Shown in pieces: positions 20,873 through 43,059 of a DNA stretch of 64,000 nucleotides. The DNA lies in NCBI RefSeq assembly GCF_030413615.1, contig NZ_CP129236.1:2154001-2218000 (forward strand), given 5' to 3'. Within the stretch, counting starts at the first letter, position 1, and each line of letters starts with the position of its first letter. Both the position numbers and the translations under genes were made by a program. The DNA comes from Planococcus shixiaomingii (GTDB lineage Bacteria; Bacillota; Bacilli; Bacillales_A; Planococcaceae). The notes under the pieces were generated by a model. The model saw only the letters and a list, made by a program, of their open reading frames with translations, was not told the DNA's origin and did not search any database.

Positions 20873-22741
20873 TCAATCTGTCAGTTCAAACGCTTCGCCA
20901 ATTCCCATTTGTTCGTAGACGTGCGATTTTGCTTTTTTCAATTCTTGTTGAAGCTCTTCAAGCTTCAGTTCAATTAGGGTTGTTTTCGATTTAAACGCTT
21001 CAACTGCCGCTTGTTGTTCTGACAATGGCAAATACGGTATCTCAAGTTCCTTTATATCTTTCCTGCTCAAAGTAGGCACTGTTGTGCCGGACAATTTGCT
21101 GGCCAATAAAAACTGGGCGACCGGACTTTCCAAATATGTTTTCAGGAATTCCGGATGCAGCTGTTTGCCGCAGCGAATGCCTATAAAGTTTTGGGAGAGC
21201 AGCAAGTTCTCTTCATCTTCCAGAATGATGGCCGTTTTTAATGCCTGCCCTCTGATTGATAGGATGACGTCCCCTTTTTCCAGTTTGTATTTCTCCACTC
21301 TGGCGTTATTTTCGATGTCATATCTGGAAATAGTGTCTAGGAGTAGCTTCCCGTCCTGTACATCTGAAATTTTGATAATCCGGTACTTTCCTTCTGCGCT
21401 TTCCTTATTCTTCGACACGACGTTAAAGCCGGTAAAGAAATCCGCCTTTTCCTTTAAAGCTGCCGTCTTTACATTATTTAACTTGTCCTGAAAGATTTTC
21501 ACATGCCCATGCCCTGCAATATACATTTCACTGGCAACCAAATAGCGGCTCGGCAATAAATTCCCGTCTTTAATATCTTCATTAAGGATCCATTTGCTGA
21601 AGTCTTTTTTTTCCTGACCGCTCTTTACTGTTTCTGTAATCTGCTGAATCGCATCATACGATAAAACCCGTTTCTGGCGCTGTTCTTCTGTGAAATTGTC
21701 GGCCGCATTAACGAATAATATCTTTCCTCTTCGATTTGGGCTCTTTTCTCTATTGAAATAAATGATATTCACTGGCAATACAGTGTTTTCGTAGAGCCTA
21801 GCTGGCAAGGAAACAACTGCTTCGATGATATCGGAAGAAATGATATTCTTCCGGATAGCCGCATCCGCTCCGCCTCTGTATAGCGTTCCATCAATTACAA
21901 CGACAATTCCCTTGCCCTTTTCTTTCAATGAAGCAAGTGCATGCGAGATGAATGCCAAATCGCCGCTCCGCTTAGAAGGCACCCCATAAACAAAACGCTG
22001 ATAAGGATCATTTGCAAGAGCTTCGTTCGTTTGCAGTAATGCGCCAAAAGGGGCGTCCATGAAAACAAAATCAAATTGCTGTACATGGTTGCCTTCAACA
22101 AATGCCGGTGCAGTTAAGACGTTTCCTTGCCGAAGATCTGCGTCTTCAATTCCATACAGAAACATCCTAATTTTTGAAAGCGCGCACGTTCTCGGATCGA
22201 TTTCTTGTCCATATACTTTTAATGCATCCGAATGCTTTTTCGCTTCGACTAAACCGCCGCCGAGTCCCGCTACCCCATCGTAGAAACTTCCATTTCGGGG
22301 ATCCAACATGGACAACGCGATTTTATTGATGGTTTTGGGAGAAGTATGTTCCGCTCCGCCTCTTCCCCTGAAATGCCCCAGGCTTTGTTGCGCTTGGTCC
22401 AACCATTCACCATAATGGGTGCTATTGTTAGTGATGGATGAGAAATCATAAAGAAACTTTGAAAGCTCTGCCGACTTGATCTTGCCTAGAACTTTCAGTT
22501 CCGGAAAAACTCCCTTTAACGCCGGAATTTCTTCTGCTTTTTCCAACATGCTTCGCAAATTCATTTTGACCTTCGAGCTGTCTTTTAAAACACTTTTGAA
22601 ATTGAAGCTTTCGGAATAAACGGGATGCTGGTCCAAATAGCCAAGCAAGGAAGAGATTGCGAGAAGCTCTATCGTATCTTCTGGAATCAAGATGTCCCTG
22701 ACATTATCCAACAAGGTCCATAACGATTTTTCATTGCTCAA
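20873..22741 (-). CDS. N6-DNA-methylase fused to one specificity domain
   Basis: 622 residues. Residues 1-130 are helical as in HsdM. The methylase core follows (RGRGGAEHTSPKTINKIALS), but motif I reads DGVAGLGGGLVEA in place of D(P)ACGSGGFL, and motif IV reads MDAPFG (residues 228-233) in place of NPPF. After residue 410 comes a type I specificity-like domain: IIKISDVQDGKLLLD, KLEKGDVILSIRGQ, SQNFIGIR, TLSRKDIKELEIPYLPLSEQ and a coiled-coil tail. So it resembles HsdM joined to half of HsdS. The altered motifs leave activity in doubt. The start is TTG, six bases after AGAGGG. No restriction subunit adjoins it. Confidence 0.8.
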   Translation of the reverse strand: MSNEKSLWTLLDNVRDILIPEDTIELLAISSLLGYLDQHPVYSESFNFKSVLKDSSKVKMNLRSMLEKAEEIPALKGVFPELKVLGKIKSAELSKFLYDFSSITNNSTHYGEWLDQAQQSLGHFRGRGGAEHTSPKTINKIALSMLDPRNGSFYDGVAGLGGGLVEAKKHSDALKVYGQEIDPRTCALSKIRMFLYGIEDADLRQGNVLTAPAFVEGNHVQQFDFVFMDAPFGALLQTNEALANDPYQRFVYGVPSKRSGDLAFISHALASLKEKGKGIVVVIDGTLYRGGADAAIRKNIISSDIIEAVVSLPARLYENTVLPVNIIYFNREKSPNRRGKILFVNAADNFTEEQRQKRVLSYDAIQQITETVKSGQEKKDFSKWILNEDIKDGNLLPSRYLVASEMYIAGHGHVKIFQDKLNNVKTAALKEKADFFTGFNVVSKNKESAEGKYRIIKISDVQDGKLLLDTISRYDIENNARVEKYKLEKGDVILSIRGQALKTAIILEDEENLLLSQNFIGIRCGKQLHPEFLKTYLESPVAQFLLASKLSGTTVPTLSRKDIKELEIPYLPLSEQQAAVEAFKSKTTLIELKLEELQQELKKAKSHVYEQMGIGEAFELTD

Positions 22742-22878: not shown

Positions 22879-24228
22879 TTAAACTTTTATCTCTTTTCGC
22901 TTAATTTCTCGAACTGTTCTTTTTAACTCGTTTGCTTCTTCAAAGACCCTGCTTAGTAATTTGAACGTTCCATAGCAAGCTTCAACGTCCAACACTTCAT
23001 CCTCAGTATGCTCGTTCATGTAGCCGACAGACAGATTCACGCTTTGGATGCCATGAGACGCCCAGATCCTCGTATCGCTGCTTCCACCAGCTGTGCAATG
23101 CCAGCTTTCCAAATTTGCATTTTTGGCTACTTCCTCAACAAAAGTTCCAAATGCTTCGTCGCAGAAATTTATAGATCCTCCGCACGATGTGACGATGTCT
23201 CCAGTCCCCCGCCGGTCTACGACAAACGCTGCGTCCACATCCCATAAAAAGTATTCCGCAACTTCCTTAGCGCCTTTTAATCCGATTTCCTCTTCAACCG
23301 TGAAAATAAATTTCACTGTTCCATTAAAACCGAACTTCGTAAGCCGCTTTGCCAGTTCCAACAAGACCGCAACCCCTGCTCTGTCATCTGCTCCTAAAAT
23401 TCCATAGCTACTAGTCCATATAGTTCCATCTTTAACAATTTCTCGATTTTCCTCAAATCCACAAACAGTATCCAAGTGAGCATTCAATAGAATAACCGGT
23501 CCACTTCCCTGCCCATATACTTTTTGCGCCAGGATGTTACCTTTCTGATCAAGAGTTACTCTGTCAACAAGCGGTTTCATTTTTTCTAATACATGTCCAC
23601 GTATTGCGCCTTCATTGCCGCTTTCCCCATCGATTAATAAACATTCTTCAAGATTCTTAAAGAACAGCTGTTTACTAAGCTCATCTATACTTTCGCTTAT
23701 CATTTCAGAGGATAGCGCACTTAATATTTCTGCTAAATCAAGAAGTTGATGCCGCTCCAGACGTAAACTTACATTTTGATTTCTCTTTTGCCATTTAGGG
23801 ACTCCTATAACATTCAATACCTTTTCCACTAATTCCATATCAACATCGCGGGCAAAGCCTATCTGAGGAAGCCTTTTGCCATGGCCGTCACAGCAATACA
23901 TGGTAGCCAAACCCAACCGGTTCAATTGGCGCACAAAACCAGCCATATAAGTATCCAATTGCTTGAGTGGCGGAACATCAAAGGAAAGCATCTCAGTCCG
24001 GCCTCTCCATTCAATGTCCACTGCCTTTAGCCATTCTTCTTCTAGAATAGCCTCCCTGTAAATTTTGAGCAAACCATTAGCGAAAGTATAACTAACAAAA
24101 AGTTCATCCAGCGTCTCCAACAGAAACTCGATGTTTTCAGTTGTTTCTTCTCGGCAATCGAATCTTCCATCACTAACCTCCTGAAATAAAAACCCTTGTC
24201 TAACGAATAAGCGATTCCAGTTTTTCAT
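22879..24228 (-). CDS. M20/M42-type metallopeptidase with unusual N-terminal domain
   Basis: 449 residues. Residues 185-435 are a di-zinc peptidase of the M20/M28/M42 clan: NAHLDTV (His251, Asp253), GADDRAG (Asp281), VEEEIGLKG (Glu312-313), VVDRRG (Asp338) and NEHTED near the end for the last histidine. The N-terminal 170 residues are not part of the normal enzyme; they contain RLGLATMYCCDGHGKRLPQI (residues 104-123), a Cys/His motif that may bind metal. The role of the fusion is unknown. GGGAGAGG lies before the ATG. It sits between a DNA methylase and a TPR regulator, an odd context for a housekeeping peptidase. Confidence 0.75.
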   Translation of the reverse strand: MKNWNRLFVRQGFLFQEVSDGRFDCREETTENIEFLLETLDELFVSYTFANGLLKIYREAILEEEWLKAVDIEWRGRTEMLSFDVPPLKQLDTYMAGFVRQLNRLGLATMYCCDGHGKRLPQIGFARDVDMELVEKVLNVIGVPKWQKRNQNVSLRLERHQLLDLAEILSALSSEMISESIDELSKQLFFKNLEECLLIDGESGNEGAIRGHVLEKMKPLVDRVTLDQKGNILAQKVYGQGSGPVILLNAHLDTVCGFEENREIVKDGTIWTSSYGILGADDRAGVAVLLELAKRLTKFGFNGTVKFIFTVEEEIGLKGAKEVAEYFLWDVDAAFVVDRRGTGDIVTSCGGSINFCDEAFGTFVEEVAKNANLESWHCTAGGSSDTRIWASHGIQSVNLSVGYMNEHTEDEVLDVEACYGTFKLLSRVFEEANELKRTVREIKRKEIKV

Positions 24229-24309: not shown

Positions 24310-25341
24310 TTATTCAATTTCATCTTCTACTCTGTAGAGAATGATAAAAGGAAGAGAACCATTGAAATAATAGGATTTGCTACCTTGCACTGTTTCAACC
24401 ACAGAGGGAACAAAACAAGCCTTTAGTTCTTCTCTTAACCTTCGAACGGCTTGCCTGTATGTATCCCATCGCAACTCTTCGTCAACCTTTAAGTCTCCAA
24501 AAAATCCTTTTACATCGGCAACACTTGCTGGTGAGGCAGCGGAACTGCTAGTTAATAAAAAACGCAAAAGGTCACTCGGCCGCTTGCTTAGTGAAACGGC
24601 TTTGTCATTGAAGTTAAGGCTTGTCTCCGAATCACCAAAATACAGAACAATTGTATTTTGTGGAGGATCAAATGCAAAATCCTCACAGTCTTGTTTTGAA
24701 CAAGTTGTTCTGCCTTCTTTTGTTTCTCGATAAAACGCATGGTTTCTTAAGTAGCTGTCATTTTCGTTTAAACTCTCAAAAAGTCTGGAGAACTCATAGC
24801 CGGGCAACTGCTCAACTTCCGCACCTGACAGCTCCTCCAAGGTATCCTGAGTCTGTTTCGCAATATGCAGCGCACTGTTCGTTAAATATGTATGAGCGTG
24901 AATGACTTGCCTTTCGTTCAACAGCATTTTGTCTTTGCCTAACCGCTGATTGGAAATAGCCATCCGGAAATACTTGAGAGCATTATCAAAATCGCTCCTT
25001 CTATAGAAAAGGAATCCTAATCGATAGGCAGCCACCGGATTCTTCGGGGCATATTGCAAGGCTTTTTCAAGACTACTAATAGCGAGAAATGATTCTTTTT
25101 TATCGGCCATTTTAATATAGGTGCCAAAATGGATCAAATTGAAAGCCAAGCGCTCAGTTATATCATCAAGAATGCTTTGGTCTTCCTCATTCAATTTTCT
25201 CGTTTTTCGAAAGTGGCTTCTCATAGCACCATATAGCTCTATTCTTTTCCGGTACAATGTTGCTTCATCAATTTCTTGCCGGCTATGAAGCAACCGGTCC
25301 TGATCTTCTAGCTCTTCTAAAGACATGTCCATATACCGCAT
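24310..25341 (-). CDS. TPR protein with C-terminal winged-helix domain
   Basis: 343 residues. Residues about 80-140 form TPR repeats (LAISSLEKALQYAPKNPVAA, YRLGFLFYRRSDFDNALKYF). The last 110 residues look like an OmpR/SARP-type winged helix: VSLSKRPSDLLRFLL, WDTYRQAVRRLREEL and VVETVQGSKSYYFNG (the wing). A short CSKQDCEDF segment lies between the two. It could be a transcriptional sensor for the island. ATG 25341 is chosen because AAGGA lies nine bases before it; ATG 25350 abuts the binding site. Confidence 0.65.
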   Translation of the reverse strand: MRYMDMSLEELEDQDRLLHSRQEIDEATLYRKRIELYGAMRSHFRKTRKLNEEDQSILDDITERLAFNLIHFGTYIKMADKKESFLAISSLEKALQYAPKNPVAAYRLGFLFYRRSDFDNALKYFRMAISNQRLGKDKMLLNERQVIHAHTYLTNSALHIAKQTQDTLEELSGAEVEQLPGYEFSRLFESLNENDSYLRNHAFYRETKEGRTTCSKQDCEDFAFDPPQNTIVLYFGDSETSLNFNDKAVSLSKRPSDLLRFLLTSSSAASPASVADVKGFFGDLKVDEELRWDTYRQAVRRLREELKACFVPSVVETVQGSKSYYFNGSLPFIILYRVEDEIE

Positions 25342-25513
25342 ATTTATCATTCCTTAAATTTACTTGTTCCTGTCTCTTATCTTCTCTCTTCATAATTCAA
25401 AGTCCTCTAAAAGCTTTACTTTCATGTCAGTTTTTAAAATGGTAAACTATGGCATACAGCTACATAAAGTGGATGGGCGGTTGGCACTCCCTTGAGAAAG
25501 GGGGTGTTTAGAT

Positions 25514-25624
25514 ATGGTGACTTACGATGCGATGAATATGCTATTTCAATTTGGCATATTTCTCACTGCAGCAATAACTGCTGTAGTGGCAATCATCGCA
25601 ATTGCCATCAACAAAAAAAAGTAA
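25514..25624 (+). CDS. Holin-like type I toxin peptide, 36 residues
   Basis: Peptide begins MVTYDAMNMLFQFGIFLTAA, continues as one membrane span rich in Ile/Ala/Val, and ends INKKK. This is the pattern of the putative holin-like toxins related to TxpA of type I toxin-antitoxin pairs, in which an antisense RNA silences the mRNA. AAAGGGGGTG lies nine bases before the ATG. It is the only plus-strand gene among minus-strand genes here. Two hairpins follow it. I cannot locate the antitoxin RNA promoter with confidence. Confidence 0.75.
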   Translation: MVTYDAMNMLFQFGIFLTAAITAVVAIIAIAINKKK

Positions 25625-25943: not shown

Positions 25944-26717
25944 TTATCTCAACTGCTTCTTAATATTATCAGTAATATTTCTTACTTGATCAACTAAATT
26001 CAAAATATTTTCATTTTCAAACCAATGTTGTAATGAATTAGCATGGGCTAAATTGTTTCTTAACTCTTGTATTCGATTAAAAAATTCCTTCGCTTTAGTT
26101 TTCGATAAGCCAGTCAAAGACGAAAGCAATATAGGATCCTTCAAAACTATATCTGTCTTATCACATATTTGTGTGCAAGTAATTAAATTAATATCTAAAT
26201 TTTTTTCTAATAATTCGCTGTATAATTCGTTTGCTTTATCTAAACGTGATTCACTAATGAGCTTTCCCCATCTATTCTCTGGATACTTCAAATGGATCAA
26301 AGAAGCAAGCTGGCTTTCGAAAATCGTGATTATCCCAAAAAGCATCATTCTAACTGCTGGTTTCTGCCTATCTGCTGCTGTGACAATACCAGTCACTTGA
26401 GATTGATCTATAATAAATAAGAAATTACGGTTTTCTAAAAGCTTTAAGCAATCTCTAATATCAGTGTTTGGGGTTATTAAATCATGAATATCGAATTTTT
26501 TGACCGCATTAATAATTTCTTCATCACTAACAATATTATTCTTATCAATAAAACCAGTGACTCTTCCATTTTCCTGAAAACCGATAACATCAAAATTTTC
26601 AACATAAAAGTATTTTTGCATTTCATCGTATTCTTCCATAGTTACTGAAGCCAAAGGTTCAGCTATATCCCTAGCGGTAAATAAAAAATTACTCGTTGTT
26701 GTATCCAGCGGACTCAT
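25944..26717 (-). CDS. Tandem CBS domains fused to a HEPN-type C-terminus
   Basis: 257 residues. Residues about 15-120 form a CBS pair (FDVIGFQENGRVTGFIDKNN, then FIIDQSQVTGIVTAADRQKP), which in other proteins binds adenine nucleotides. The helical C-terminus contains ELRNNLAHAN; Arg220 and His225 form the Rx4H motif of HEPN RNases. This suggests a nucleotide-controlled RNase of the abortive-infection kind; the activity is inferred from the motif. GGAGGG lies seven bases before the ATG. It is the last gene of a four-gene operon with a MazF-like protein and the helicase pair upstream, 43 bases after the former. Confidence 0.65.
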   Translation of the reverse strand: MSPLDTTTSNFLFTARDIAEPLASVTMEEYDEMQKYFYVENFDVIGFQENGRVTGFIDKNNIVSDEEIINAVKKFDIHDLITPNTDIRDCLKLLENRNFLFIIDQSQVTGIVTAADRQKPAVRMMLFGIITIFESQLASLIHLKYPENRWGKLISESRLDKANELYSELLEKNLDINLITCTQICDKTDIVLKDPILLSSLTGLSKTKAKEFFNRIQELRNNLAHANSLQHWFENENILNLVDQVRNITDNIKKQLR

Positions 26718-26760
26718 AGATATCCCTCCAACAAACTTCTAAATTAGCAGCATTACCAGT

Positions 26761-27360
26761 TCATCTTCCTCCATAATATACCTTAATACGTCCTTTGTTT
26801 GGCACTTCACGGAAGTTCTTATATGGCTTCTTTTCCTTTTCAAACAGTGGCTGATTTGAATATCCTATCTCTTTTAGAATTTGGTCTTTCAGCTTTTCTA
26901 AATCTCCATATTTCTCATTATTATATTGAGCTAGCTGTATTTTTTTCTTTATCCTGTGAAGTTGTTGATGTAACTCGTTTATTCGCTTTATTTTTCTAAA
27001 TGTTTGAAGACATTTTTGATAATCTTCAATTGGCACTTCTGCTATTTGCTTGATAATGGCATTATTATTAATTAAGAAGATTTTTCTCAACATTACAACA
27101 GAAGTTGACTTTAACCCCGCTGGCTGACCAATATAGATTGAATCAACTTCCTGTTTTTTATTATTTGTCATTTGGTTCTCTTCTTTTTTTCTTTTCTTGT
27201 CTTTTACTTTTTCATTTTTTGCGGGTTGTATATTAACAATATCTTCATTACTTGCTCTTCTAATTTGCGCAAAGCTATATGAGCCATTTACTTCCTTTAA
27301 ACAAAGAGCCGGTACAATTCGATCAGCAGAGATTTTAATTAAACAAACTACTCCTTCCAC
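26761..27360 (-). CDS. MazF/PemK-like protein with a lysine-rich insertion
   Basis: 199 residues. The beginning (VCLIKISADRIVPALCLKE and SFAQIRRAS) and the part SIYIGQPAGLKSTSVVMLRK with IFLINNNAIIKQIAEVP follow the strand order of MazF/PemK toxins, including the hydrophobic 'SxVxLxxIxxIxxxxIxKxIgxlp' segment. About 30 lysine/glutamate-rich residues are inserted between the two halves, and a coiled coil (about residues 145-175) is added at the end. The family call is moderate. The start is GTG, five bases after GGAGGGG. It lies 44 bases after the helicase gene and is probably cotranscribed with it. Confidence 0.45.
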   Translation of the reverse strand: MEGVVCLIKISADRIVPALCLKEVNGSYSFAQIRRASNEDIVNIQPAKNEKVKDKKRKKEENQMTNNKKQEVDSIYIGQPAGLKSTSVVMLRKIFLINNNAIIKQIAEVPIEDYQKCLQTFRKIKRINELHQQLHRIKKKIQLAQYNNEKYGDLEKLKDQILKEIGYSNQPLFEKEKKPYKNFREVPNKGRIKVYYGGR

Positions 27361-27404
27361 GCGATCCCCTCCCCAAAATGAGTTTAGTTAGAAAAAGGTT
27401 AAAT

Positions 27405-30400
27405 TCATTTTACTAACTTGCCTAAATACTCCTCCACCATCCCCCGAGATAATGTATCATGACAATATTGATTCGAGTAATCCTTTAAACAGCCATAGCA
27501 ACTAGTTTCCTTACCGCATTGGCAAGAGCTTACAAGTTCTTTTGCAGCTGCTACGACTTTTTCCAACTGACCAAAAACCTCATTCATATAGCCGGCTCCA
27601 CCGGGAACTTTGTCAAACAACACAATTGTAGGTGTAGCCAAGTGGTTATACCGGATACATCCGTCAATATCACGTCTATTTATGCCTAAAGCAATACTTA
27701 TTCCGTTTAAAAGCGCATAAAGCAAAGAGTCCCACAATTCCGGTTCAGGTGTACTGTTAATAAACTCAACTTCCAAGATATCACTAATAAATTCATGGCC
27801 AAGATGTATTGACTTTTTATCGATTGTACCTTCGCATATCTTGTTCAGTTGATTTTTATGTTTGACTTCTTTCGTGCCTATCATTGATCCACATAAAGTA
27901 CATACGTTATAGCCTCGTCCACTTCGGCCTTTACTTATGACAGACAGCTTACCAAAAGGCGAATACTTGATCCGCACTTCCTGGCCTTTCAAATTAAATG
28001 TTCTTTCTTGTTCCGATGCTTGTTGATGCTCACGAACTTCTAGTTCTTCTGAATAGAAATATTCGGAAAAGAATACTCTAGAGCGGTTTTCTCTAGCCGG
28101 TTTTCTATCACTCGCCTTTTCTACACGTTTTGCATTGAATCCAAATTTAGGAATAATCATTTTATGAACTTCGCTAACTTCCTCACACTTCTCACACTGT
28201 GCAGTTAAAGCGCGATAATTTGGATTTAAACGCTCGATAACTTTATAGGATTTGCAATTTTTGCATTCAATATAATAAAGTGTAGGAAGCTCAAATCCTT
28301 TTACTTTTCTAATACCAGTACTTTCATAAATAGTTCCGTTTGCAACGATTTGAGAACCCGGTGCGTATTCACCAATTGCCATGGATAAATCTCTGCTTAA
28401 TCTAATATCATCTTTCTCTTTTTGAGAAATAATCATTTCCACTACATCAACCGGAAAACCATACTTCGGAATGATGTTTGCGCTGGATAAAAAGCTGATG
28501 AGTCCTTCATTCTGAATCCGATTCATTACACGGTTCAATCTATCCGTGTTCTTACTAGCTTTAAAATCTTCTTCTTTTATTTTTCTTAAGTCCTCTAAGT
28601 CTTGATAGTATAACTTAGATACTTTCTTCATTAAGCTCGTTTCTTCTAGCATAAGTTCTTTTTCCCAGGAAGCGAATTCAGGATGATATTGGAGCTTCTC
28701 GTAGTTTGGCACTACTTTCTGAACAGATTCACGTAAACGAGTCGGTATATTATTGACGAAGTGATTTAATCTTTTAGGTCCTGACTTTATAGTCATTGAA
28801 TCTTGGAAGAAGTCTGAGACTTTACCGAACATTTCTTCATTCTCTCTAAAGAAACTAGATAATACTAAAGAATTTAAATGCCGTTTTATTATTTTCGAGT
28901 TATCCATTTTCAATACAGGTGGTTTAATTACACCTGCAATAATGTTCTCAGGATCCTGATAGTACGTTAGGTCATGGGATTTTCTTTGGGCAAATGTTAA
29001 AACAAATGCAACCGAAGCTTTTCTACGACCTGCACGCCCAGCTCGTTGAATATAATTCGCTGTTTCTGGTGGAACGTTTCTCAGAAATACAGCTTCTAAT
29101 CCACCGACATCTACACCCATTTCAAACGTAGTAGAACAACTTAATACATTAATATCCCCATTAACAAATCTCTCCTGATAGTGCGAGGCATTTTCAGGGG
29201 ATAGTTGAGCGGTATGCTCTTTTACGCTCATTTTAACTGGTATCAAGTTATTGTATTGATTGATGTAATGTGATTTTAATGAGCCATTTTCTATAGAACT
29301 TAAATGTCCTGAACAGCCATTTGTCATACATACATTTTCAATATTGTAGGAAGTGATAACTTTACAGTCGTTGCACTGAAAAATTGGCAAGTTTTTACGA
29401 ACGCGCCAAATACTCTGTCTTAAAAGATTGTTGCCGTTTTTACTCTTGAAGAAGCTTTCATAAAAAAGAGGCAAGTTTATTAAATCCCATATTTTAGAAA
29501 GTTGCTCTCTTGCAGCGCTAATGGCGGCTTCTTCATCCATTCCTTTTTGAATGAAAATTTTCTTTAAATAATCGAGTCTGATATTAGAACGCTTTGGAAG
29601 CCAAGCACTGACGTAGCCTTTATTATCAGCAGCATCTTTATTAACTGAGTTCTCAAAGTTTATAGGTTTCATTCGGTCAGAATTAAACTTACTTCTTTCG
29701 AGATGCGTTACCGCATTCTTATGCCTCAAAGTACTTAATAATACCTGTAAGGCCGTCTTCAGTTCTGGTCCAGTGCCAAAGTTTAGTCGTTGGGCAAGAA
29801 CCTCTAGCTTTGATTCCATCTGTTCTGGTATATCTAGCTGATACGAGATTAAGCCCGTTCCCTCAAGAGAAATCCTTACATTTCCTTTAATAAATTCCGA
29901 CATGACATATTCTTCAGCAACCGTTTTTCGTTCCTCTCTGTCCATTTCCGGTGTATAGACATCCCATTTCAAAGCTTCATTGTAAGCATCTGCTGCCCAT
30001 GTTTTTAAACTGATTGGTTCTTTTTCGTCATATTTCCCAATCGTTTTATAAAGGATTGCTCGCCATAAATCGCGTTCATAAGTATATTCCAGGTAAGGAG
30101 CGAAAAAGGCCGCTTCCTGACGAGAATCTGAAAAAACCAATAGTTTTTGAGGCTCGTATTTATTTTCAGTTACTTCTTTTAATCCCTCTTCAGGCGATGC
30201 ATCATTGAACAAATCTCCAAAAAGATTATTTCCTACTGTAACATTCTCATTTTTTATCGTCTTTTTTGAATCTAACACTAACTGTTGATAGAGAGACGTA
30301 GTCAATATTGCAGCTGGACCATCGCTGCCGCTCAAAAATAACTTAATCGGATTTTGCTTCTTTTTTCCACAGTGATTACAAGAGGAATGTCCAGAGAACT

Positions 30401-32222
30401 TTATTGGTTCTTTAACAAGCGTAACAAGTTTCCGATTAGTAATTTCTCTTTCCCGGCAACAGGAGGCCGAATCGTCGCCTTTTTGCCAAATACTTGCACA
30501 GCAAGGACACATTTCGTAAATTTCTTTGTCTTCTTCTGTCAGTTCATCTTCATCTTCATCAACAGCCAATTCTTGATTGTTTTCTTTGATCATATAGGCT
30601 GTATAAGTTATTTTGTCATCTTGCACCTGTGAGTTTTTACGCTGCACTAGTTTTCCGTCTTCTTCCTCACCTATAAGATGGACCTGGCCACAATTCGAAC
30701 AAACTCCCATTTCAAAAAAAGGATGATTTGTTTTTTCATCCACCTTTTTTGCTTGCAAAGACACCTCATATTTAGGATAAAGTTTCAGATAACAACCTTC
30801 TATTGCGCGTACAAACACATGATACCTCGCTGGCAAAAGCGGTTCCTGAGAATCTTTTGGCGAAATACTTCCAGCAATATCAACTAAATCAATCAAACCT
30901 TGTCGAATTTCTTCCACTTTCACTTCACCATATTTTGCTTGGATAGCCATAAGACGGTTTAATAACGCAGTTAAATCCTGCGGTTTGTTCTTTAGAAGAT
31001 CACGGAGGTTAAACAAATTTTTATCACCACTAAGAAACTCGTATAAAAACTCATTGGTTTTTCTTTCTTTTGTCAGTAACAAATTTTCTTTTTCAATTCC
31101 ATATTCCTGTAGCTTTAAAATATCGCTGTCATTCAATCGATCTTTCTGCTTTAGTTCTAATAGATAGGAGTAAACAGACCAATTAGGATGATAGAGCAAC
31201 TCATGTTCATCTCGATAGTCAATTCTTTCTGACTCAATCAAATCATTTTCTTTTTCTGACTTAAAATAAAATGGTTCATCAAAAATATTACCCGCAAATT
31301 CAAGAACTTTTTGTTTCGCTTCAGCTCCTGAGCCCAATGTTGCACTGGTTGCAATGCATTGCATACTTCCTCTATAAGGCCTCTTCTTCAAAATCCGATC
31401 TTTCAGCCTTCTTAAAAGCATCCCTATTTCAATACCATTTGCCCCGTTATATGAGTGCACTTCATCAAGCACTATAAACTTCCAGTCGTCTGAAAAGGGA
31501 CCATCGAAAAATGCGGTATCAGTCGGTCTAAGAAGTAAATATTCCAACATCGCATAATTCGTTACCAATATATTCGGAGGGTTATTTCTCATCTCATTTC
31601 GCGAAAGGACTTCATTTGGTAATTTTTCAATGCCTGGATTTTGCTGCTTGAATTTGTCCAAGGCTCTGCTTTCCAATTGCTCAGTTTCCCCTGTATATCT
31701 GCCAAAAGTTATCTCTGGTGTATTCTTTAATAGAGATCTTAATCTTTTCATCTGATCATTTGCAAGCGCATTCATGGGATAAACAAAAAGAGCTCTAACG
31801 CCCGGCTGCAAACCTTTAATTTCGTTCTCAAAAAACAAATCATTTAAAATCGGCATCATGAAGGATTCTGTTTTACCACTCCCTGTACCAGTTGCCACAA
31901 CAAAATTCTTTTTTTCTTTGGCTTTTCTTATAGCTTTTTCCTGATGGGTATACAATGGACGATCAGCAGGCATCTCTTCCTGATTTAAAGCAAGAAATTT
32001 TTTAGCCAACACACCTTCTTCAACTAATGCATTAATGGAGTTTCCCTTTTTATAAGGTGGTGTCACTTCCAAATAAGGCCCTTTTGAAAGAAGATTTTCT
32101 TTTCTAAGCTCTTTTGAAAATGCCTCCTCTATCTCTTCATCGTTAATCGGAAATGTCGTAGCCAGATAATCTCGGTAATCATTATCAATCCTATTCTTTC
32201 CATGTAAAGGATGGATTCCCAT
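27405..32222 (-). CDS. Large DEAD/DEAH helicase with DUF1998-type C-terminus (DruE-like)
   Basis: 1605 residues. SF2 helicase motifs: TGTGSGKT (about residues 111-118), VLDEVHSYNG (DEVH about 253-256), ATSATLG, FEMGVDVGGLEAVFLRN and QRAGRAGRR. Between them are CxxC pairs (CSNCGQ, CPCC, CNHCGK). The end shows the DUF1998 pattern: VPGGAGYMNEV and CQCGKETSCYGCLKDYSNQ with a final CH. Size and layout match the large helicase of Druantia systems; DISARM has these two halves as separate genes. The start at 32222 follows GGAAAGGAA; it overlaps the upstream gene by 32 bases. It is expected to translocate on phage DNA. Confidence 0.85.
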   Translation of the reverse strand: MGIHPLHGKNRIDNDYRDYLATTFPINDEEIEEAFSKELRKENLLSKGPYLEVTPPYKKGNSINALVEEGVLAKKFLALNQEEMPADRPLYTHQEKAIRKAKEKKNFVVATGTGSGKTESFMMPILNDLFFENEIKGLQPGVRALFVYPMNALANDQMKRLRSLLKNTPEITFGRYTGETEQLESRALDKFKQQNPGIEKLPNEVLSRNEMRNNPPNILVTNYAMLEYLLLRPTDTAFFDGPFSDDWKFIVLDEVHSYNGANGIEIGMLLRRLKDRILKKRPYRGSMQCIATSATLGSGAEAKQKVLEFAGNIFDEPFYFKSEKENDLIESERIDYRDEHELLYHPNWSVYSYLLELKQKDRLNDSDILKLQEYGIEKENLLLTKERKTNEFLYEFLSGDKNLFNLRDLLKNKPQDLTALLNRLMAIQAKYGEVKVEEIRQGLIDLVDIAGSISPKDSQEPLLPARYHVFVRAIEGCYLKLYPKYEVSLQAKKVDEKTNHPFFEMGVCSNCGQVHLIGEEEDGKLVQRKNSQVQDDKITYTAYMIKENNQELAVDEDEDELTEEDKEIYEMCPCCASIWQKGDDSASCCREREITNRKLVTLVKEPIKFSGHSSCNHCGKKKQNPIKLFLSGSDGPAAILTTSLYQQLVLDSKKTIKNENVTVGNNLFGDLFNDASPEEGLKEVTENKYEPQKLLVFSDSRQEAAFFAPYLEYTYERDLWRAILYKTIGKYDEKEPISLKTWAADAYNEALKWDVYTPEMDREERKTVAEEYVMSEFIKGNVRISLEGTGLISYQLDIPEQMESKLEVLAQRLNFGTGPELKTALQVLLSTLRHKNAVTHLERSKFNSDRMKPINFENSVNKDAADNKGYVSAWLPKRSNIRLDYLKKIFIQKGMDEEAAISAAREQLSKIWDLINLPLFYESFFKSKNGNNLLRQSIWRVRKNLPIFQCNDCKVITSYNIENVCMTNGCSGHLSSIENGSLKSHYINQYNNLIPVKMSVKEHTAQLSPENASHYQERFVNGDINVLSCSTTFEMGVDVGGLEAVFLRNVPPETANYIQRAGRAGRRKASVAFVLTFAQRKSHDLTYYQDPENIIAGVIKPPVLKMDNSKIIKRHLNSLVLSSFFRENEEMFGKVSDFFQDSMTIKSGPKRLNHFVNNIPTRLRESVQKVVPNYEKLQYHPEFASWEKELMLEETSLMKKVSKLYYQDLEDLRKIKEEDFKASKNTDRLNRVMNRIQNEGLISFLSSANIIPKYGFPVDVVEMIISQKEKDDIRLSRDLSMAIGEYAPGSQIVANGTIYESTGIRKVKGFELPTLYYIECKNCKSYKVIERLNPNYRALTAQCEKCEEVSEVHKMIIPKFGFNAKRVEKASDRKPARENRSRVFFSEYFYSEELEVREHQQASEQERTFNLKGQEVRIKYSPFGKLSVISKGRSGRGYNVCTLCGSMIGTKEVKHKNQLNKICEGTIDKKSIHLGHEFISDILEVEFINSTPEPELWDSLLYALLNGISIALGINRRDIDGCIRYNHLATPTIVLFDKVPGGAGYMNEVFGQLEKVVAAAKELVSSCQCGKETSCYGCLKDYSNQYCHDTLSRGMVEEYLGKLVK

Positions 32223-35200
32223 ATGCTTGTTTCCTTTCCTGTAAAATGATGATGGCCCTTCTATCGCCAACCAGTTTATCTTTCCAATGTACTAGGTCGT
32301 GTAAATACCAGTCTTCCGCAATTTCGTACAGAGCTGGAATTGCTTGTCTTAGTGCAAATAAAGTATGCGAATCCATTTTGCTTTCGTGCTCAATTATCAA
32401 GGCACAGACCAATGCAGAAAGACCGACATAGAATGGGAAGGAATATAAGCTGTTACTTGAAGCGATTCTTCTCGTGTTTAACCGATTTATGTTCTCTCTC
32501 GATAAAAGCTGAAGATCGTTCAAAGAAACGAGCACATTGTCTAAAGCATTTTTATGGTTGATATAAAACGCTTTTATTCGTAATTGATATGTTTCCTCGT
32601 TATCAATTTGATCAAAAAAGGAAAGGTACTCATGATGTATACTGAATCCTTTGATGAACTGACCTTTTTTTATTTTTCTTTGAAAGCTGATTGCCCTTTC
32701 CCTTCTTGAAAGCGTGCTGAGCATGCTAATGTTTTCGGGAGTGTATAGTGCTTTTGGATTTACTTTTTCCAAACGATTTTGCATTGCACTATTAAAAGAA
32801 GCCGGATCCCATTCTTGATATCCTGCAATTTTGCATATAAACGAAGCAAATTCGTTCTTTTCCTCTTTTTTAATAATGTCTAATAAAAGATCAATATTTT
32901 GAAGGCCAAAATCGCAGCATAAATTGTAATCAGAAAGCAATAAGGGTTCTATTACTGCTTTTCTGTCCCACATGAATATTAAAAGCTTTTCCAGTTCGGC
33001 TATTTCCCATTCTTTTTCTTCTCCATCACTATCAAGCATTAAAAGCCATTCGACAAAGGTAGGAACTTCAATTTTTCTTTCTACTTTGAAAAACTTCTTG
33101 TGATTATCAAGTGAGGACGGATATATTACTTCATCAAAAATATCGAAAAAATCATCTTCCTCGACTTCACATAATTCAAAAAAATAATATCCGTCTGGTA
33201 AATTTTCTTCAGTGATTTGTAAAGAGTGAGCCGGATAAACTACCTCTCGTTCCATAAATAGCTCTTTCTGGGGATTGAAAGACCAAATACGCGCTTTCAG
33301 CTTCTCAGGTTGAAAAGAACAATTGAAAGATAGACATTCATTATCTGAACTTGGAGCGATAACCGAATTCAAAACCCATTCTGTTTCTACAGTCACAACT
33401 TTTTCAGTTATTTCCAATTCGGCTATAGTTAGTCCAATAGTTCTTTTTCCACTTGTTTCGTGCAAGCCATCAAAATAATTCAAATCCAAAACATGCTTTC
33501 TGCCGACTCTGCAATTAACTGTTTTTCTAGCAAATTCTCCTGTCTTCAATCTTTCCATCAATGTGACAGCTACAGCTTTACCAGAATTAAGCAAGGATGG
33601 ATTCTCCAAATCGAGTAATACATGCGTCTCTGCAAAATCAAATTCATTGGCATTGAAAACTATACCTAATTCTTGAGCTCCGGAAGATGTGACTAATTCA
33701 CATGAAACCTTACTTGAATAAAGTTTTAAGTCCAATTTTTCTTTTGTCGTGAGGTTCAGAAGATTGCCTCGAACAAAATCAGGATGATTCGGAACATTAA
33801 ATGAAGTTTTTGTTTCACTTTTCTTTTCAACATCAAAGATTGTAGGAATCGTAAAATCGATATTTGGAGATGTACTTACATTCATTTCTTGTTCCAGGAC
33901 AGAAAATGAAAAGTCTTTTCTTGAGATATAATGGAAGTCAATCGATTGGTCATGTCCTAAAACACCAGTCAAGCTTAATAAGTATTTTCCAAAAAGTTCG
34001 CCTTTATTGTTTAACAAATTTTTCAGATTGATTTTTATTCCCTTTGTTGATTGTTCATATTCTAATTCACTAATTTTCTTCCAAACTGTTGTTTTGGAAT
34101 AAGGATGATACAATTTTAGGCTCCATCTTGCTAAATCTTCGTTCAATGAGGAGATATCAGAATGTATATTAATCATCGGCTCGTCTGTATAAACGGCAGT
34201 TTCCGCTTTTGCATGCGCCACTCTGGTGCCTTCAAGTTCCATTAGATTGCGCAATGGATTCAGTCTTAATATCGTATTTGAAAACTCAATGGTATCTGAC
34301 TTATCTACATACAAGTCTATTTCATAATATCCTTGCCATTCTTTAAATAGCGGCCTCACTAAGTGATCGTTCTTGCAATTCTTGATTTTCTCATACTCAC
34401 TTTCGTGCACTATTAGTAGCAAATTAGAATTAGACAAATACTTTTTATTTAGCTGTTCGTAGCTGCCCGTATCGAATACCGCCACTTGATCCAGGTAGAA
34501 ACTCCATTCACCTTTTATTTCCCCATTGATTAAAAGGTGGACTATGTAGTCATTTAAGGGAGAAACAGGGTATTCACCATTCTTTTTATCTACGATATAT
34601 TCTTGTTCCTCTTCGAAGATATACATTTTTGTAGGCAGTATAATCGAATTGTCATCGGAAGTTATTTTCCATTCAACTTTCACTTTTTCTTTGTTGCTGA
34701 ATCGTTGAATTGGCAAGTTAATGAATACATTTTGGTATTGAGTTGAATAGCTCAATACCGGTCGTGACAAACGCTGTTGCCGGCTCTGTTGAATTTTCGT
34801 GGTCACTTCTTTAGATGTATATTTTTCAAATTCATCAAGAATATGATCCGGTAAATAATTTCTGTATTTTTCCGTAAATGGCCGTTCCTGCTCTCTCCAC
34901 ACTTCAATGCAGCGGGAGATTAAACTGTTAGAAACCGAATTGTCGAGTTTAATAAAGTCTTTGACACTTTTATATAAACCATAAGTTTTTACTACCGACC
35001 CATCGTTTTTTTCTCTTTTAACAGATTCAATCACTTCGTGAGCTGTCAAATCAAAACTGGCGGCTGGATCGATTACGTTTTTTATAAATCCGGCTATGTT
35101 ATTTTTAGGAATTCCCGCATGACCCAAAATATTTTCCACATATTTTTGGTTGCTGTTTTTATCAAAAAGTTCTAATTTCTCAAGTTCAATTTGTCGAAGA

Positions 35201-35508
35201 AAATTTACTTTCCATTCATTATCTTTTAGTAAAGAAATATCTTTTTTGAATTTCCCCCAGAAATTACCATCGTAATTGTAAATTGCAAAATTTACCGTCA
35301 ACAGCAATGCTGTTCGAGGAGCAAGATTCCAAATGAATTTAACAACACTCCCTTGGCGATCGATATGATGACTTAAGATTTTTTTAAAATTTTCTAGAAT
35401 TTTTATGTAATCGGTATATGGAAGGTTTGCCTCGCTGACAATTTTAATTTCTTTAAAGTATTTTGCCATTCTAGATTCTGTATAATTCAAATACTCTTCT
35501 ACTCTCAT
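32191..35508 (-). CDS. 1105-residue protein of unknown function (DruH-like)
   Basis: No enzymatic motif is visible. The N-terminal 240 residues are helical (MRVEEYLNYTESRMAKYFKE). Residues about 250-850 look beta-rich, with repeated strands such as VFINLPIQRF, VKVEWKITSDD and YYEIDLYVDKSD that suggest several immunoglobulin-like sandwiches. The C-terminal 250 residues are helical again. A protein of about this size, encoded immediately before the large DUF1998 helicase, is the layout of Druantia type III (DruH-DruE); I assign it by that context and not by a recognised domain. GGAGGGG precedes the ATG. The 3' end overlaps the helicase gene, so the two are coupled. Confidence 0.7.
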   Translation of the reverse strand: MRVEEYLNYTESRMAKYFKEIKIVSEANLPYTDYIKILENFKKILSHHIDRQGSVVKFIWNLAPRTALLLTVNFAIYNYDGNFWGKFKKDISLLKDNEWKVNFLRQIELEKLELFDKNSNQKYVENILGHAGIPKNNIAGFIKNVIDPAASFDLTAHEVIESVKREKNDGSVVKTYGLYKSVKDFIKLDNSVSNSLISRCIEVWREQERPFTEKYRNYLPDHILDEFEKYTSKEVTTKIQQSRQQRLSRPVLSYSTQYQNVFINLPIQRFSNKEKVKVEWKITSDDNSIILPTKMYIFEEEQEYIVDKKNGEYPVSPLNDYIVHLLINGEIKGEWSFYLDQVAVFDTGSYEQLNKKYLSNSNLLLIVHESEYEKIKNCKNDHLVRPLFKEWQGYYEIDLYVDKSDTIEFSNTILRLNPLRNLMELEGTRVAHAKAETAVYTDEPMINIHSDISSLNEDLARWSLKLYHPYSKTTVWKKISELEYEQSTKGIKINLKNLLNNKGELFGKYLLSLTGVLGHDQSIDFHYISRKDFSFSVLEQEMNVSTSPNIDFTIPTIFDVEKKSETKTSFNVPNHPDFVRGNLLNLTTKEKLDLKLYSSKVSCELVTSSGAQELGIVFNANEFDFAETHVLLDLENPSLLNSGKAVAVTLMERLKTGEFARKTVNCRVGRKHVLDLNYFDGLHETSGKRTIGLTIAELEITEKVVTVETEWVLNSVIAPSSDNECLSFNCSFQPEKLKARIWSFNPQKELFMEREVVYPAHSLQITEENLPDGYYFFELCEVEEDDFFDIFDEVIYPSSLDNHKKFFKVERKIEVPTFVEWLLMLDSDGEEKEWEIAELEKLLIFMWDRKAVIEPLLLSDYNLCCDFGLQNIDLLLDIIKKEEKNEFASFICKIAGYQEWDPASFNSAMQNRLEKVNPKALYTPENISMLSTLSRRERAISFQRKIKKGQFIKGFSIHHEYLSFFDQIDNEETYQLRIKAFYINHKNALDNVLVSLNDLQLLSRENINRLNTRRIASSNSLYSFPFYVGLSALVCALIIEHESKMDSHTLFALRQAIPALYEIAEDWYLHDLVHWKDKLVGDRRAIIILQERKQAYGNPSFTWKE

Positions 35509-35771: not shown

Positions 35772-35792
35772 AGACATCCATAATGGATGTCT
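35772..35792 (-). terminator. Terminator after the hsdS fragment
   Basis: AGACATCCAT / ATGGATGTCT stem; on the minus strand it is followed by a run of seven T. Confidence 0.75.
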
Positions 35793-35811: not shown

Positions 35812-36475
35812 CTACTGTAGTATTTCTTTTAATAATTCGATTGCATTTTCATCAGAGGGATTATTAGTACCTAGTTCGCCTCGAAAAGCCTTACTTAATA
35901 TAGAAGTTTTTAATGTTTCGGCATTTATTTCTTTAACTACTTGAAAAGCGTCTTTTTCTTTATTTAACATATCTTTTACTGTTTGAATAATTTTAATTCT
36001 TTCATTTTTTGGAGCCAAAGGAATTTTAATATTTTTTATATCTTCTAAACTTAATACTGGCCTTCCTATTCCATATGCTCTTTTCTCTAACTCTCCTCCA
36101 CCTCCACTTAAAGATAACAAACTTAAATGGATGTATGGAGCTATACTTTTATCTATTAATTTTGTTAAAGCAACGGATTGACTTACATAGGCTTCTGGAA
36201 TATCTTTATCAACTAATGCACATTTTCCAACATTTGCACCAGTTATAGTAGTCAATAAATCAAAAGGTTCCACTAAACTTCTTTTTCCTTCAACTTGTTC
36301 TGGTAAATTAACAAAAGCAACTTTCTTCATATCTAAGTTGTTTTTATTTATATCCTGCGTTCTAATAAAACAAGCTCCTTTATCAGAGTAATATTTGGAC
36401 CAGTCTCTTGAACCACTAGTAATGTAATATGCTATCTCACCAAGTTTTATCCATTTCCATCCTCTTGAAGAGACT
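35812..36475 (-). pseudogene. hsdS: Type I restriction specificity subunit (hsdS), 3' fragment
   Basis: Encodes one target-recognition half of HsdS: it opens with GWKWIKLGEIAYYITSGSRD, then WSKYYSDKGACFIRTQDINK, DLLTTITGANVGKCALVD and ELEKRAYGIGRPVLSLEDIK, and ends with the conserved helix and TSILSKAFRGELG. The N-terminal half is absent. The frame runs back directly into the hsdR fragment in a different frame, so no proper start exists; the ATG at 36330 would give only 172 residues without a binding site. Probably inactive. Confidence 0.8.
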
Positions 36476-36794
36476 TTGCTTCTTCAGTTTTTCCATATCC
36501 CGCTTCATGCATTGCCAAGTTGCCAGTTCGGCGGAGTGAATCAAAAATGTCGATTAATTCACGCTCAACCAAGCCTTCACGGCGCATTGTATTGACGCGG
36601 TCTACTTGTGTTGTTCCTTTTTCTTCGCGAATGTTTTCAGATGCTAATATGAACTTTGCTAATGTCTCTGCGAATAAGCGCAGCTTCATAATGGTTGTAT
36701 GAGGATCTCGGTAAACGTTGGTTTCTGCTGTTTTGCCCAAGTTAGCAAGAACATCCCATTTACCACTAAAAAATGAAAAGTTATGGTTCATCAT
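36447..36794 (-). pseudogene. hsdR: Type I restriction endonuclease (hsdR), 5' fragment
   Basis: About 116 codons matching the N-terminal domain (DUF4145-like) of type I R subunits: NHNFSFFSGKWDVLANLGKT, MKLRLFAETLAKFILAS and LRRTGNLAMHEAGYGKTEEA. HsdR normally has about 1000 residues. After KTEEAKSLQ the frame enters hsdS sequence and stops. A deletion appears to have removed the rest of hsdR, any hsdM and the 5' half of hsdS, with the junction near 36475. Confidence 0.8.
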
Positions 36795-36915
36795 TATCAC
36801 CGTTTTCTGAAAGTTTGTATGTGGTTATTGTACCACAATTTTACAAACAATTTCATTTGCACCTTAATTAACAATAATTGTAATTTTTTGTTCTTCTTGA
36901 AATAAAAAAACGACT

Positions 36916-38468: not shown

Positions 38469-41400
38469 TTAATTAATCTCTTTCACCATCTGCCGATCCC
38501 TCACCGGCTCAATCCCCAATGCATCTAACTGCACCCAAAGACTTTCCAAAGCTTTCGCCTTATCGAAGTAAAACTCTCTTCCCCGCACGCGCCAGAATTT
38601 CCACCCTGCGCGCTCCAAGGATTCTTGGCGCTTCATGTCTTCTTCGAATTTTTCGGGGCCGTGCCATCTTTCGCCGTCGCATTCGACGGCTAAGCGGTCG
38701 CGTATGCCTTCGACGACCATGTCGATGCGGTATTGGCCGACTTTTACTTGCGGCGTGACTTTATAGCCACGCGACAGCAGCATGTGGAGCACGTCCACTT
38801 CAAACGGCGAATCGCATTGGTCTTCGAGGTTCTGGACTTCCATGTTGAAGCGGGTCGGGTTTTGGCAGTAGCTCAGCAAGCGGTAGCGCAGGTCTTCCGG
38901 GTTCAGCTCTTCCAAATCGACGGAATGGTAGAGCCGCATCTGGTTTTTCGCGCGGCTTGCTGCGACGTTAAAGCGCTGCTTGTCGGAGTTGCCCGTCAAC
39001 GCCCGGAAATTGCGGTTTGGCGCAGACACCATCGATAGGAAGATGATGTCCCGTTCGTCGCCTTGCAGCGTGTACGGATTTCCGCAAATGATTTTCCGTT
39101 CGACGAATTCGCGGTCGCCGATTTCCTGGCGGATCCGGGATTCCAGTAATTTGTGCTGGTCTTGCCCGAGCAACGTAATGACGCCGAACGTCTGCCCTTT
39201 AAGCTTTGGATCGCGAATCATTTGGGCCATATCAGCGACAATTGCATCGATTTCACCTTCATTGACATCGTTTCGGTCATCGATGACGCCGTCGTTGACT
39301 TTGATGGCCGTGACAGGTGGGTCGATTTTGTCTTCTTCTAGCGGCAAACGAAGTGGTATCATTTCCCCGCCGTAGCTCATGTCATTCGAAAACTGAATAA
39401 TTTCCGGCACGCAGCGGAAATGCTCACGCAGCATCAATTTTCCTTCTTTCGGGAAAGTTTGTTCTGCGATTTCATATAGGGATAGATTGCCGTCAAACAG
39501 ATCGGCATTCGGAATGCCTTTCAAGTGGCGGCGCACCAATTCATACACATCTTCTTGCTTGGTCCCAATCGATTGCGGACTGATTTGCTCGTCGTCGCCG
39601 ACGACCACAATCTTTTTACCACGCAATAAAACGTTGATCGCAAACAAATCGCACTGGCTACTTTCGTCAAAGATGATGACGTCAAATTTTTCATTGGTCA
39701 CCGGGAAGTTTTCGAGCACTTGGCTGATTGGCATGATCCATACAGGAATAGCGGTTTGGGCAGTCTTCATTTCTTCGCGGGCACCTTGCAAGTTACGCTG
39801 AGCAGACTTTCCGCTTCCTTTGCCGAAGCGTTTGATATACGTTTTCCAAGCAGACAGTGCCCGTTTTTCTTCTTCTGTGATACGCTCTACTTGGTTTTTC
39901 CAAGTAGAAGCACTGACGATCGAACGAATCAACCGTTTTTGTTCAACATGCTCTTCTTCTAACTGTTTCTTTAAAAGTGTAGTGTTGGTATCCTTAGTTT
40001 CATCCAACCATGACTGCAGTTTTTTCATTTCGAATGCTTCAGTATGATTTTTTGGAAACTCGATTTCGCTTCCTACTGACATCTTGATTAATTGGCCAGT
40101 CAACGGCAAAGTCTTATTGAATTGCTCAAGCAACTCATAAAAACGGAGCACTTGCGTTTTTGTCTGGTGCAAACCTTCAAGTTTTTTTAGCAGTTCTATC
40201 CATTTCGCAACGTTTCTTTCTTGATATGCGGCCGCAAACTCTGTTCCTATAGCGTGCATTGTTACTTGAGAATTCATAGAAACAAGTTCAGCAAGTCCTT
40301 GATTGAATTGCTCTTCCCATTTTAAATAGGCAATGCGCTGGCGAACTGCTTCAAGGTCAAGGCTCAATTGCTTGTTTTCAGCAACGGAATACAAGTTGAG
40401 GCTCTCCATGCCAAAAGGAACTAATTTCGCTTTCAAGTTTTGAGCGAGGTCGACGGTTTGGATGGCTAGCTGCAACTCGTTTAAGCGTTCGTCTAACAGA
40501 TGCGGGAAGCGCTTTTCTTTTTCATCAATAACGTTGTGGCCGATTTCTTCCATATTGCCGTTCAACAGGCGGGCCGCTTCTTTTTTGACCCATTCGTATT
40601 CAAGGTGGGTTTCAAGAATTCCAATGTCTTGGAGCGTTTGGACCGGTTCACCGTTTAACACCGGCTCTTCAAACAAGTATTTCGCTTGTTTTCCTTTTCC
40701 TAAAAAGAACAGGAAGTTCGGTTTTTTGCCTTTTTGAAGAGGCTCTTTGGCAATTGCTACATCTTCTTTTAACGAGGCGGCAGTTTTCTGAGGCAACTCG
40801 ACTTTATGGGTGATGAGTTGGTTGTAGGATTCAAACAGGCGTTCATTCGCTCCTGTCAACTTCTCTATCAATTCCCGCCAGCGTGTTTCACGTGTGCCGC
40901 CAGCTCGGCAGTCGTCCATCATGGACTGGTACACCGGGTTTTCGAGTACTGCCGACATATCGAGAAGTCCCTTAATGTCTTTTTGCAATTGCTGAATAAC
41001 TATTTCATCCAAAGGCAATTGGTATTTCTCTAATACTGTTTTGCCTTCGCCGTTTGCTTCCTCTAAGTTGTTTTCAATGTCTACAAACGCAGCAAAAGAA
41101 GAAGCGTTTTGGATATCCGTTTCACCTTCCGGCAGTTTTTGATTTCTCAAAGAAAGTTGTTCTTTTGCTAGGTCGCTTTTTAGCTGCCACAGTTCCTTGA
41201 ATTGGACCGGGTTTAGCGGGAACTCTTCATCTATTGCCAGCGTATCTTGGATCCAGCTGTAATGAAGATCCGATTCGGACAACCGTTTAGCGACATCGTA
41301 TTTGAAGAGCTTTTCGCCTTTATATTGCAGGACAGTTCCTTCTTTTTCCGCATATTCTTTTAACAAATTCTTAAGTTTCGCTTCTTCACGCTTGCTGCGG

Positions 41401-42821: not shown

Positions 42822-43059
42822 CGGAGGCACCTCTCTTATCTTTTAATCCTCTATTTTCAGTTCAAATCGCATTTGATAAACACTTGATAAAATTAGTATG
42901 TTCTTTAATCTTTTATGCCTAATCTTACCAATAAGTAGGTGTTTAGACAAGATGATGGTTAGTCTATAGTAAAATTTCTCTAAAACATTTTTAAAATCTA
43001 TTCCTTTTGTTTCCGGGAAATAGACTTCATAAGAAGTAGATACTTTTTTTGCTTCAAAC

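Follow-up and report, generated by a model that had tools for sequence, protein, structure and literature searches.

A locus of four adjoining genes was analysed in Planococcus shixiaomingii, within a stretch of 64,000 nucleotides (contig NZ_CP129236.1, positions 2,154,001 to 2,218,000; hereafter the window) of a 4.02 Mb genome. All four genes lie on the minus strand between positions 35508 and 25944, where an earlier note made from the sequence alone had placed them, in the order druH-like gene, druE-like gene, gene 3 and gene 4. Gene 1 (32191..35508) encodes the DruH-like protein of 1105 residues and overlaps by 32 bases the gene for a compact DruE-like helicase of the YprA family (27405..32222, 1605 residues), which contains Walker A and DEVH motifs. 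Gene 3 (26761..27360) begins with GTG and encodes 199 residues with a MazF-like predicted fold, while gene 4 (25944..26717) encodes 257 residues comprising a CBS pair and a HEPN domain with the motif R220-x4-H225. The gaps are 44 bases between the helicase gene and gene 3 and 43 bases between genes 3 and 4, so that both the overlap and the close spacing of at most 44 bases described in the note were borne out. The helicase start was assigned to the ATG giving 1605 residues, which carries the N-terminus common to its relatives; an alternative upstream TTG at 32270 would give 1621 residues. GGAGG-type ribosome sites precede genes 1, 3 and 4. Homologues in other Planococcus genomes are 54–91% identical, indicating that the four-gene locus is more than a chance assembly.

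Transcription signals were sought by consensus scan. A terminator-like hairpin was located on the minus strand at 35772..35792, where it separates the operon from the hsdS fragment upstream, and no minus-strand terminator-like site was found in either of the short gaps of 44 and 43 bases. Promoter-like matches were not enriched over the region, numbering 32 compared to a mean of 38.6 in shuffled sequence.

The helicase matched the Pfam families DEAD, Helicase_C and MZB with E-values of 7.9e-23, 2.4e-12 and 1e-15, and its best PADLOC model was DruE1 at 639 bits, followed by DruE3 at 631 bits. The protein ends 38 residues past the start of its terminal cysteine cluster. The initial reading as a DruE-like helicase with a DUF1998-type cluster was supported. 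Only 26 residues follow the MZB domain, compared to 413 and 405 in the type III DruE proteins of Escherichia coli and Pseudomonas luteola, leaving no room for C-terminal PLD nuclease domains. As Pfam misses the PLD domains even in these two controls, length is the evidence for the missing region; a simple search for HxK-x4-D was uninformative, the pattern being missing also from five of the six type III DruEs. A short DruE is also known outside the clade of the window helicase, as the Azotobacter protein in the type III set has 1705 residues.

A tree of 28 DruE rows was built by a quick method with midpoint rooting, and was flagged for long branches and uneven composition. The window helicase fell in an 11-row clade of compact DruEs with a support of 100 (Shimodaira–Hasegawa-like approximate likelihood ratio test, SH-aLRT); of its ten companions, nine are from Bacilli and one is from a Ruminococcus phage. 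The six type III rows and the seven type I rows formed separate clades, each with a support of 100, placing the window helicase outside the type III clade. The type I labels of three rows (G056, G231 and G360) were assigned from gene layout only; for the other four a DruA, annotated or identified by PADLOC, lies nearby. The phage row comes from Ruminococcus phage NatCom_28274 (L051 6218-13641), where the gene for a compact DruE lies near the endolysin gene, together with that for a distant DruH-like partner. A phage genome here carries a Druantia III-like pair; genes 3 and 4 were judged at this locus from annotation only.

The structure predicted for the gene 1 product consists of a helical N-domain (residues 1–234), tandem Ig/FN3-like beta domains (approximately 247–812) and a helical C-domain. 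It had no match to the PADLOC DruH models at E-values up to 1, while DruH controls from E. coli, Marinobacter and Chryseobacterium were recognised in the same library at 2457, 1077 and 131 bits. Whole-length profile comparisons gave nothing significant, and no DruH structure appeared among the 50 matches listed in each of two fold searches with the gene 1 model. The gene 1 alignment comprised 14 of the 16 proteins found. Across four Planococcus genomes the helicase was better conserved than its partner, with 88–91% compared to 70–80% identity. The layout attributed to the locus in the earlier note, a large upstream gene overlapping a helicase gene, is present, and the profile search that the note proposed was positive for DruE and negative for DruH. 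The assignment to Druantia type III survived in its DruE-like helicase and its gene layout but not in the DruH models, the type III clade or the PLD region, and Druantia type III proper was rejected on the missing DruH model match, the missing nuclease region and the tree placement.

Gene 3 has a predicted MazF-like fold over residues 1–129, common to MazF and CcdB, followed by a long C-terminal helix and a conserved tail. No PADLOC or NCBIfam model named it at an E-value of 0.001 or better, and its PemK match by sequence reached only 0.012. The alignment, of 17 of the 19 proteins found, revealed strongly conserved residues of its own (Q32, R34, K69, K93 and K104). Comparison by hhalign with seven PemK-family proteins was weak, with a local probability of 41.5% over residues 78–122 only and a global probability of 4.5%. 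The residue that we take to be the MazF catalytic arginine aligned opposite Val16 in all three MAFFT runs with these seven proteins and in the global hhalign alignment; the presumed catalytic threonine fell opposite Arg34 in two of the MAFFT runs, though not in the third or in hhalign. Valine occupies the arginine position in 18 of the 19 gene 3 proteins, the 19th being a fragment, and no serine or threonine is invariant between residues 17 and 68. The MazF-like description thus holds for the predicted fold only, and not for the catalytic arginine or, probably, the threonine; an ordinary MazF was rejected because the catalytic arginine is replaced. Since the MazF scaffold is kept without the usual catalytic residues, gene 3 is most likely an adaptor or regulator that would bind nucleic acid or a partner, rather than an mRNA interferase. 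The fold common to MazF and CcdB, and the residues that the family conserves for itself, would also suit a toxin acting through a different RNase site or by CcdB-like binding of gyrase, which would give the operon two toxic effectors, as supposed in the earlier note. Such activity is highly improbable given the near-universal valine, the lack of an invariant serine or threonine and the marginal PemK score.

Gene 4 matched the Pfam CBS family with an E-value of 1.4e-4 and a score of 22.6 bits, just under the curated cut-off of 24, and its profile matched CBS-pair structures over residues 24–121. Matches to HEPN families were weak (0.005 and 0.02); however, the R-x4-H motif was invariant across the 25 sequences aligned of the 45 found, and LR[ND][NDS]LAH occurred in 44 of the 45 family proteins, the window protein included, the exception being a 178-residue fragment. 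A PPR match of the profile was set aside, its single-repeat scores amounting to a few bits. The CBS-pair match and the intact HEPN motif uphold the reading of gene 4 as an RNase-like CBS-HEPN protein. HEPN domains fused to CBS domains, sometimes with HD, have already been noted, and nucleotide control of RNA stability was proposed for them (PMC3710099). DS-11, a one-protein CBS-HEPN system, is described as validated in phage defence, requiring a CBS tyrosine and HEPN residues (PMC13092281). With these precedents, the gene 4 product is with good probability a nucleotide-gated RNase, as judged from its sequence. A precomputed HD_4 domain is present in 24 of the 45 family proteins, most of which are longer (approximately 430–450 residues). 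Many such HD-CBS-HEPN proteins were collected (P0037-P0064), in each of which a nucleotide-gated RNase may be joined to a nucleotide hydrolase.

The linkage of the four genes was surveyed in 261 genomes of the family, that of the window included. A DruH-like protein was found in eight: five with an adjoining DruE, two with a full-length gene and no DruE match in the fetched stretch, and one with a fragment (G146). The two full-length genes without DruE (G009, L019 11920-15174; G011, L020 5232-8528) belong to one genus. Gene 3 occurred in four genomes, directly behind druE in three (the window, G112 and G092) and without druE in one (G003). Gene 4 occurred in 11 genomes, eight of them with strong matches, of which two lie behind druE and gene 3 (the window and G112) and six are in genomes without a DruH-like protein; weak matches were excluded from the strong counts (3 of 11 and 10 of 14 for gene 4, 3 of 6 for gene 3). 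The overlap with the five pair-bearing genomes gave hypergeometric probabilities of 1.4e-5 for gene 3 and 0.008 for gene 4, values that ignore kinship. A Virgibacillus locus provided a sixth pair, whose products are 26% (gene 1) and 50% (gene 2) identical to those of the window. Behind these six pairs with a partner of the window family, both small genes were present in two cases, gene 3 only in one and neither in three. The case with gene 3 only is Planococcus maitriensis (G092), where another small open reading frame stands in the place of gene 4. As a proxy for residence on one contig, 7 of the 19 gene 3 protein clusters, that of the window included, equalled a gene 4 cluster in the length of the longest contig.

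The proposal of an attached effector pair was partly sustained, in that gene 3 lies directly behind druE in three of its four genomes while both small genes are absent from half of the pairs; in the same way the large pair often lacks the small genes, yet these are not scattered at random. A two-gene system with chance neighbours was considered insufficient in view of this position of gene 3. Neither small gene is an obligate partner of the other, as gene 3 occurs without gene 4 in G003 and G092 and gene 4 without gene 3 in six family genomes. These separate occurrences also make it improbable that the two form a toxin-antitoxin-like pair in which the MazF-shaped protein would hold the HEPN RNase in check, with the defence locus stabilised by the two together, despite their adjoining in the same order, their small two-gene size and the catalytically degenerate appearance of gene 3. 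MazF folds are, in addition, usually the toxin.

Outside druE operons, the small genes were found in varied surroundings. In G537 gene 3 is the next gene after brxL, approximately 285 bases downstream, in a BREX locus where PglX, PglZ and BrxL were identified; a literature search linking BREX, PemK and brxL found nothing. Gene 3 also occurs beside a HATPase protein on an IMG/VR viral contig, and stands alone in G003. Gene 4 lies approximately 100 bases behind an McrBC pair in G172 and within 0.5 kb behind an MTES-type helicase in G074; in G604 its neighbours are a PLD-SNF2 helicase and a type III restriction system. In G016, G017, G219 and G111 no defence neighbour was recognised, as judged from reading frames rather than a systematic scan, and the G111 copy is broken by a stop codon. 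Scans of viral contigs gave no relatives of gene 1 (A1), gene 4 (A3) or DruE and one locus for gene 3 (A2). Plasmid searches gave no match to genes 1 and 3, and for gene 4 four haloarchaeal CBS proteins of 22–25% identity. Genes 3 and 4 behave like a shared pool of accessory genes, often though not always at defence loci.

This mobility underlies the main alternative, in which genes 3 and 4 are unconnected passengers: each would be a mobile one-gene defence that landed behind druE and does no more than share its transcript, with gene 4 self-sufficient like DS-11 and gene 3 serving a separate role. The independent settings of each gene, the locus with gene 3 and no gene 4 in G092 and the one-protein nature of DS-11 (PMC13092281) all agree with it. 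Against it stand the close packing and common order of the genes in two genomes (the window and G112), the position of gene 3 behind druE and the apparent sharing of contigs by the two families, and this explanation is regarded as quite possible, if less probable than the one that follows.

The operon was interpreted, with a probability of roughly one half, as a DNA-directed defence core resembling Druantia III, to which genes 3 and 4 form an optional add-on downstream. Several observations weigh against this interpretation. Homology of gene 1 to DruH is weak, with an hhalign probability of 4%. Genes 3 and 4 are missing behind the pairs of G091, Virgibacillus and G085, the last on a contig that ends 720 bases after druE. 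The six strong gene 4 genomes without a DruH-like protein have no DruE match in the fetched stretch, and at four of these six loci no defence neighbour was recognised. No gene 3 or gene 4 profile match was obtained around four more distant compact DruEs of Bacilli (G430, G518, G492 and G470), of which G518 also has no intact upstream partner in the fetched stretch. The promoter-like sites would also allow internal promoters and separate transcripts.

A core with add-on would operate as follows. By analogy with published Druantia III, the DruH-like protein would sense infection and work with the compact DruE, which would load on 3' single-stranded phage DNA and block its replication. Because this DruE has no C-terminal nuclease, any cutting would be left to the DruH-like protein or to enzymes of the host. 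The gene 4 RNase may remain inactive unless an adenine-nucleotide signal is bound by its CBS pair, serving as a late, cell-stopping fail-safe and a second, RNA-directed tier, with gene 3 as a possible adaptor or regulator. The gene order would have the DNA-directed arm expressed first and the RNA-directed arm last. The helicase core would be sufficient alone, its protection broadened or backed up by genes 3 and 4. A stronger and rather unlikely version is that the nuclease-less helicase pair outsources killing to the nucleotide-gated RNase, in which case DruE action or infection would shift an adenine-nucleotide signal read by the CBS pair of gene 4, and gene 3 would be the physical link. If true, this would constitute a two-tier, DNA-then-RNA immune system, and a Druantia-type helicase would for the first time have a signalling output.

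The E. coli type III DruE is reported to bring its own nuclease (PMC13192584), which raises the question of how compact, nuclease-less DruEs protect, and the operon makes it possible to test directly whether DNA cutting is replaced or backed up by an RNA-directed arm. The ligand of DS-11 is described as still sought (PMC13092281), and could be looked for at a locus where a CBS-HEPN protein is tied to a DNA-directed trigger. Gene 3, with its predicted MazF fold, recurs at Druantia-like, BREX and viral-contig loci and may be an accessory factor that these share.

The operon lies within a defence island. Directly upstream lie two partial type I restriction genes on the minus strand, encoding the C-terminal part of HsdS (35812-36330) and the N-terminal part of HsdR (36447-36800), and further upstream is an MTES-type helicase-nuclease (38469-42830, minus strand; PADLOC PDC-S37). 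A close homologue of the latter lies upstream of the druH-like gene in G091 (L015 15728-19900), suggesting that the two may travel together. On the other side, the plus strand carries an open reading frame for 36 hydrophobic residues (25514-25624), preceded by a G-rich stretch like a ribosome site, which presumably resembles type I toxin peptides. It falls between gene 4 and a minus-strand gene for a TPR protein (24310-25350), next to which is an M42/M20-like peptidase gene (22879-24228, minus strand). Homologues of the TPR protein and the peptidase also lie beside the gene 4 homologues of G172 and G604, and they were neighbours at three of nine gene 4 loci checked, two of which end at a contig edge; the two genes are possibly a separate conserved module. 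The same island includes, all on the minus strand, an HsdM-HsdS fusion (20873-22741), a methyltransferase with a partial mad2 match (17139-18347) and a PDC-S14 protein (16173-17027).

When compared with known systems, the operon resembles Druantia type III in its large first protein overlapping a YprA-family helicase with an MZB cluster, in a DruE better conserved than its partner and, possibly, in the predicted helical, Ig-like and helical architecture of the first protein. It differs in having no DruH model match, a DruE1 score narrowly above that of DruE3, no room for the C-terminal PLD domains, a DruE outside the type III clade and two extra genes. The DruE of the E. coli type III system is described as having two C-terminal PLD domains and a helicase that loads on 3' single strands (PMC13192584). 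A Mycobacterium smegmatis pair, assigned to type III, also has a short DruE, of 1667 residues with no canonical nuclease domain, and is reported to block circularisation and replication of phage DNA and to cause abortive infection (PMC13316683). A survey of YprA proteins describes a distinct 'Druantia Type III-like' branch whose helicases mostly lack a nuclease domain, as does the window helicase; HEPN, MazF, PemK and CBS are absent from its main text, the supplements being outside this comparison (PMC12458937). The compact DruE clade of the window is probably this branch, matched by description rather than on the published tree.

Gene 4 shares its CBS and HEPN architecture with DS-11, a likeness by description and not by sequence, and differs in being the last gene of a helicase operon where DS-11 is a one-protein system (PMC13092281). 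Gene 3 shares the predicted fold of MazF, PemK and CcdB in residues 1–129 and departs from them in a short first loop, valine in place of the catalytic arginine, probably arginine in place of the threonine, and its C-terminal helix and tail. A literature search found no description of this four-gene arrangement. There is a parallel with the CoCoNuT superoperons, in which DNA-restriction genes, sometimes of Druantia III, accompany HEPN RNases and for which an echeloned scheme was proposed (PMC11090510). The order of DNA-directed arm first and RNase last fits that scheme, while the four genes of the window contain no McrB or McrC match and it is the Druantia-like pair itself to which the RNase-like gene is attached. 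Each part of the operon belongs to a known kind, and it is their combination that appears to be new.

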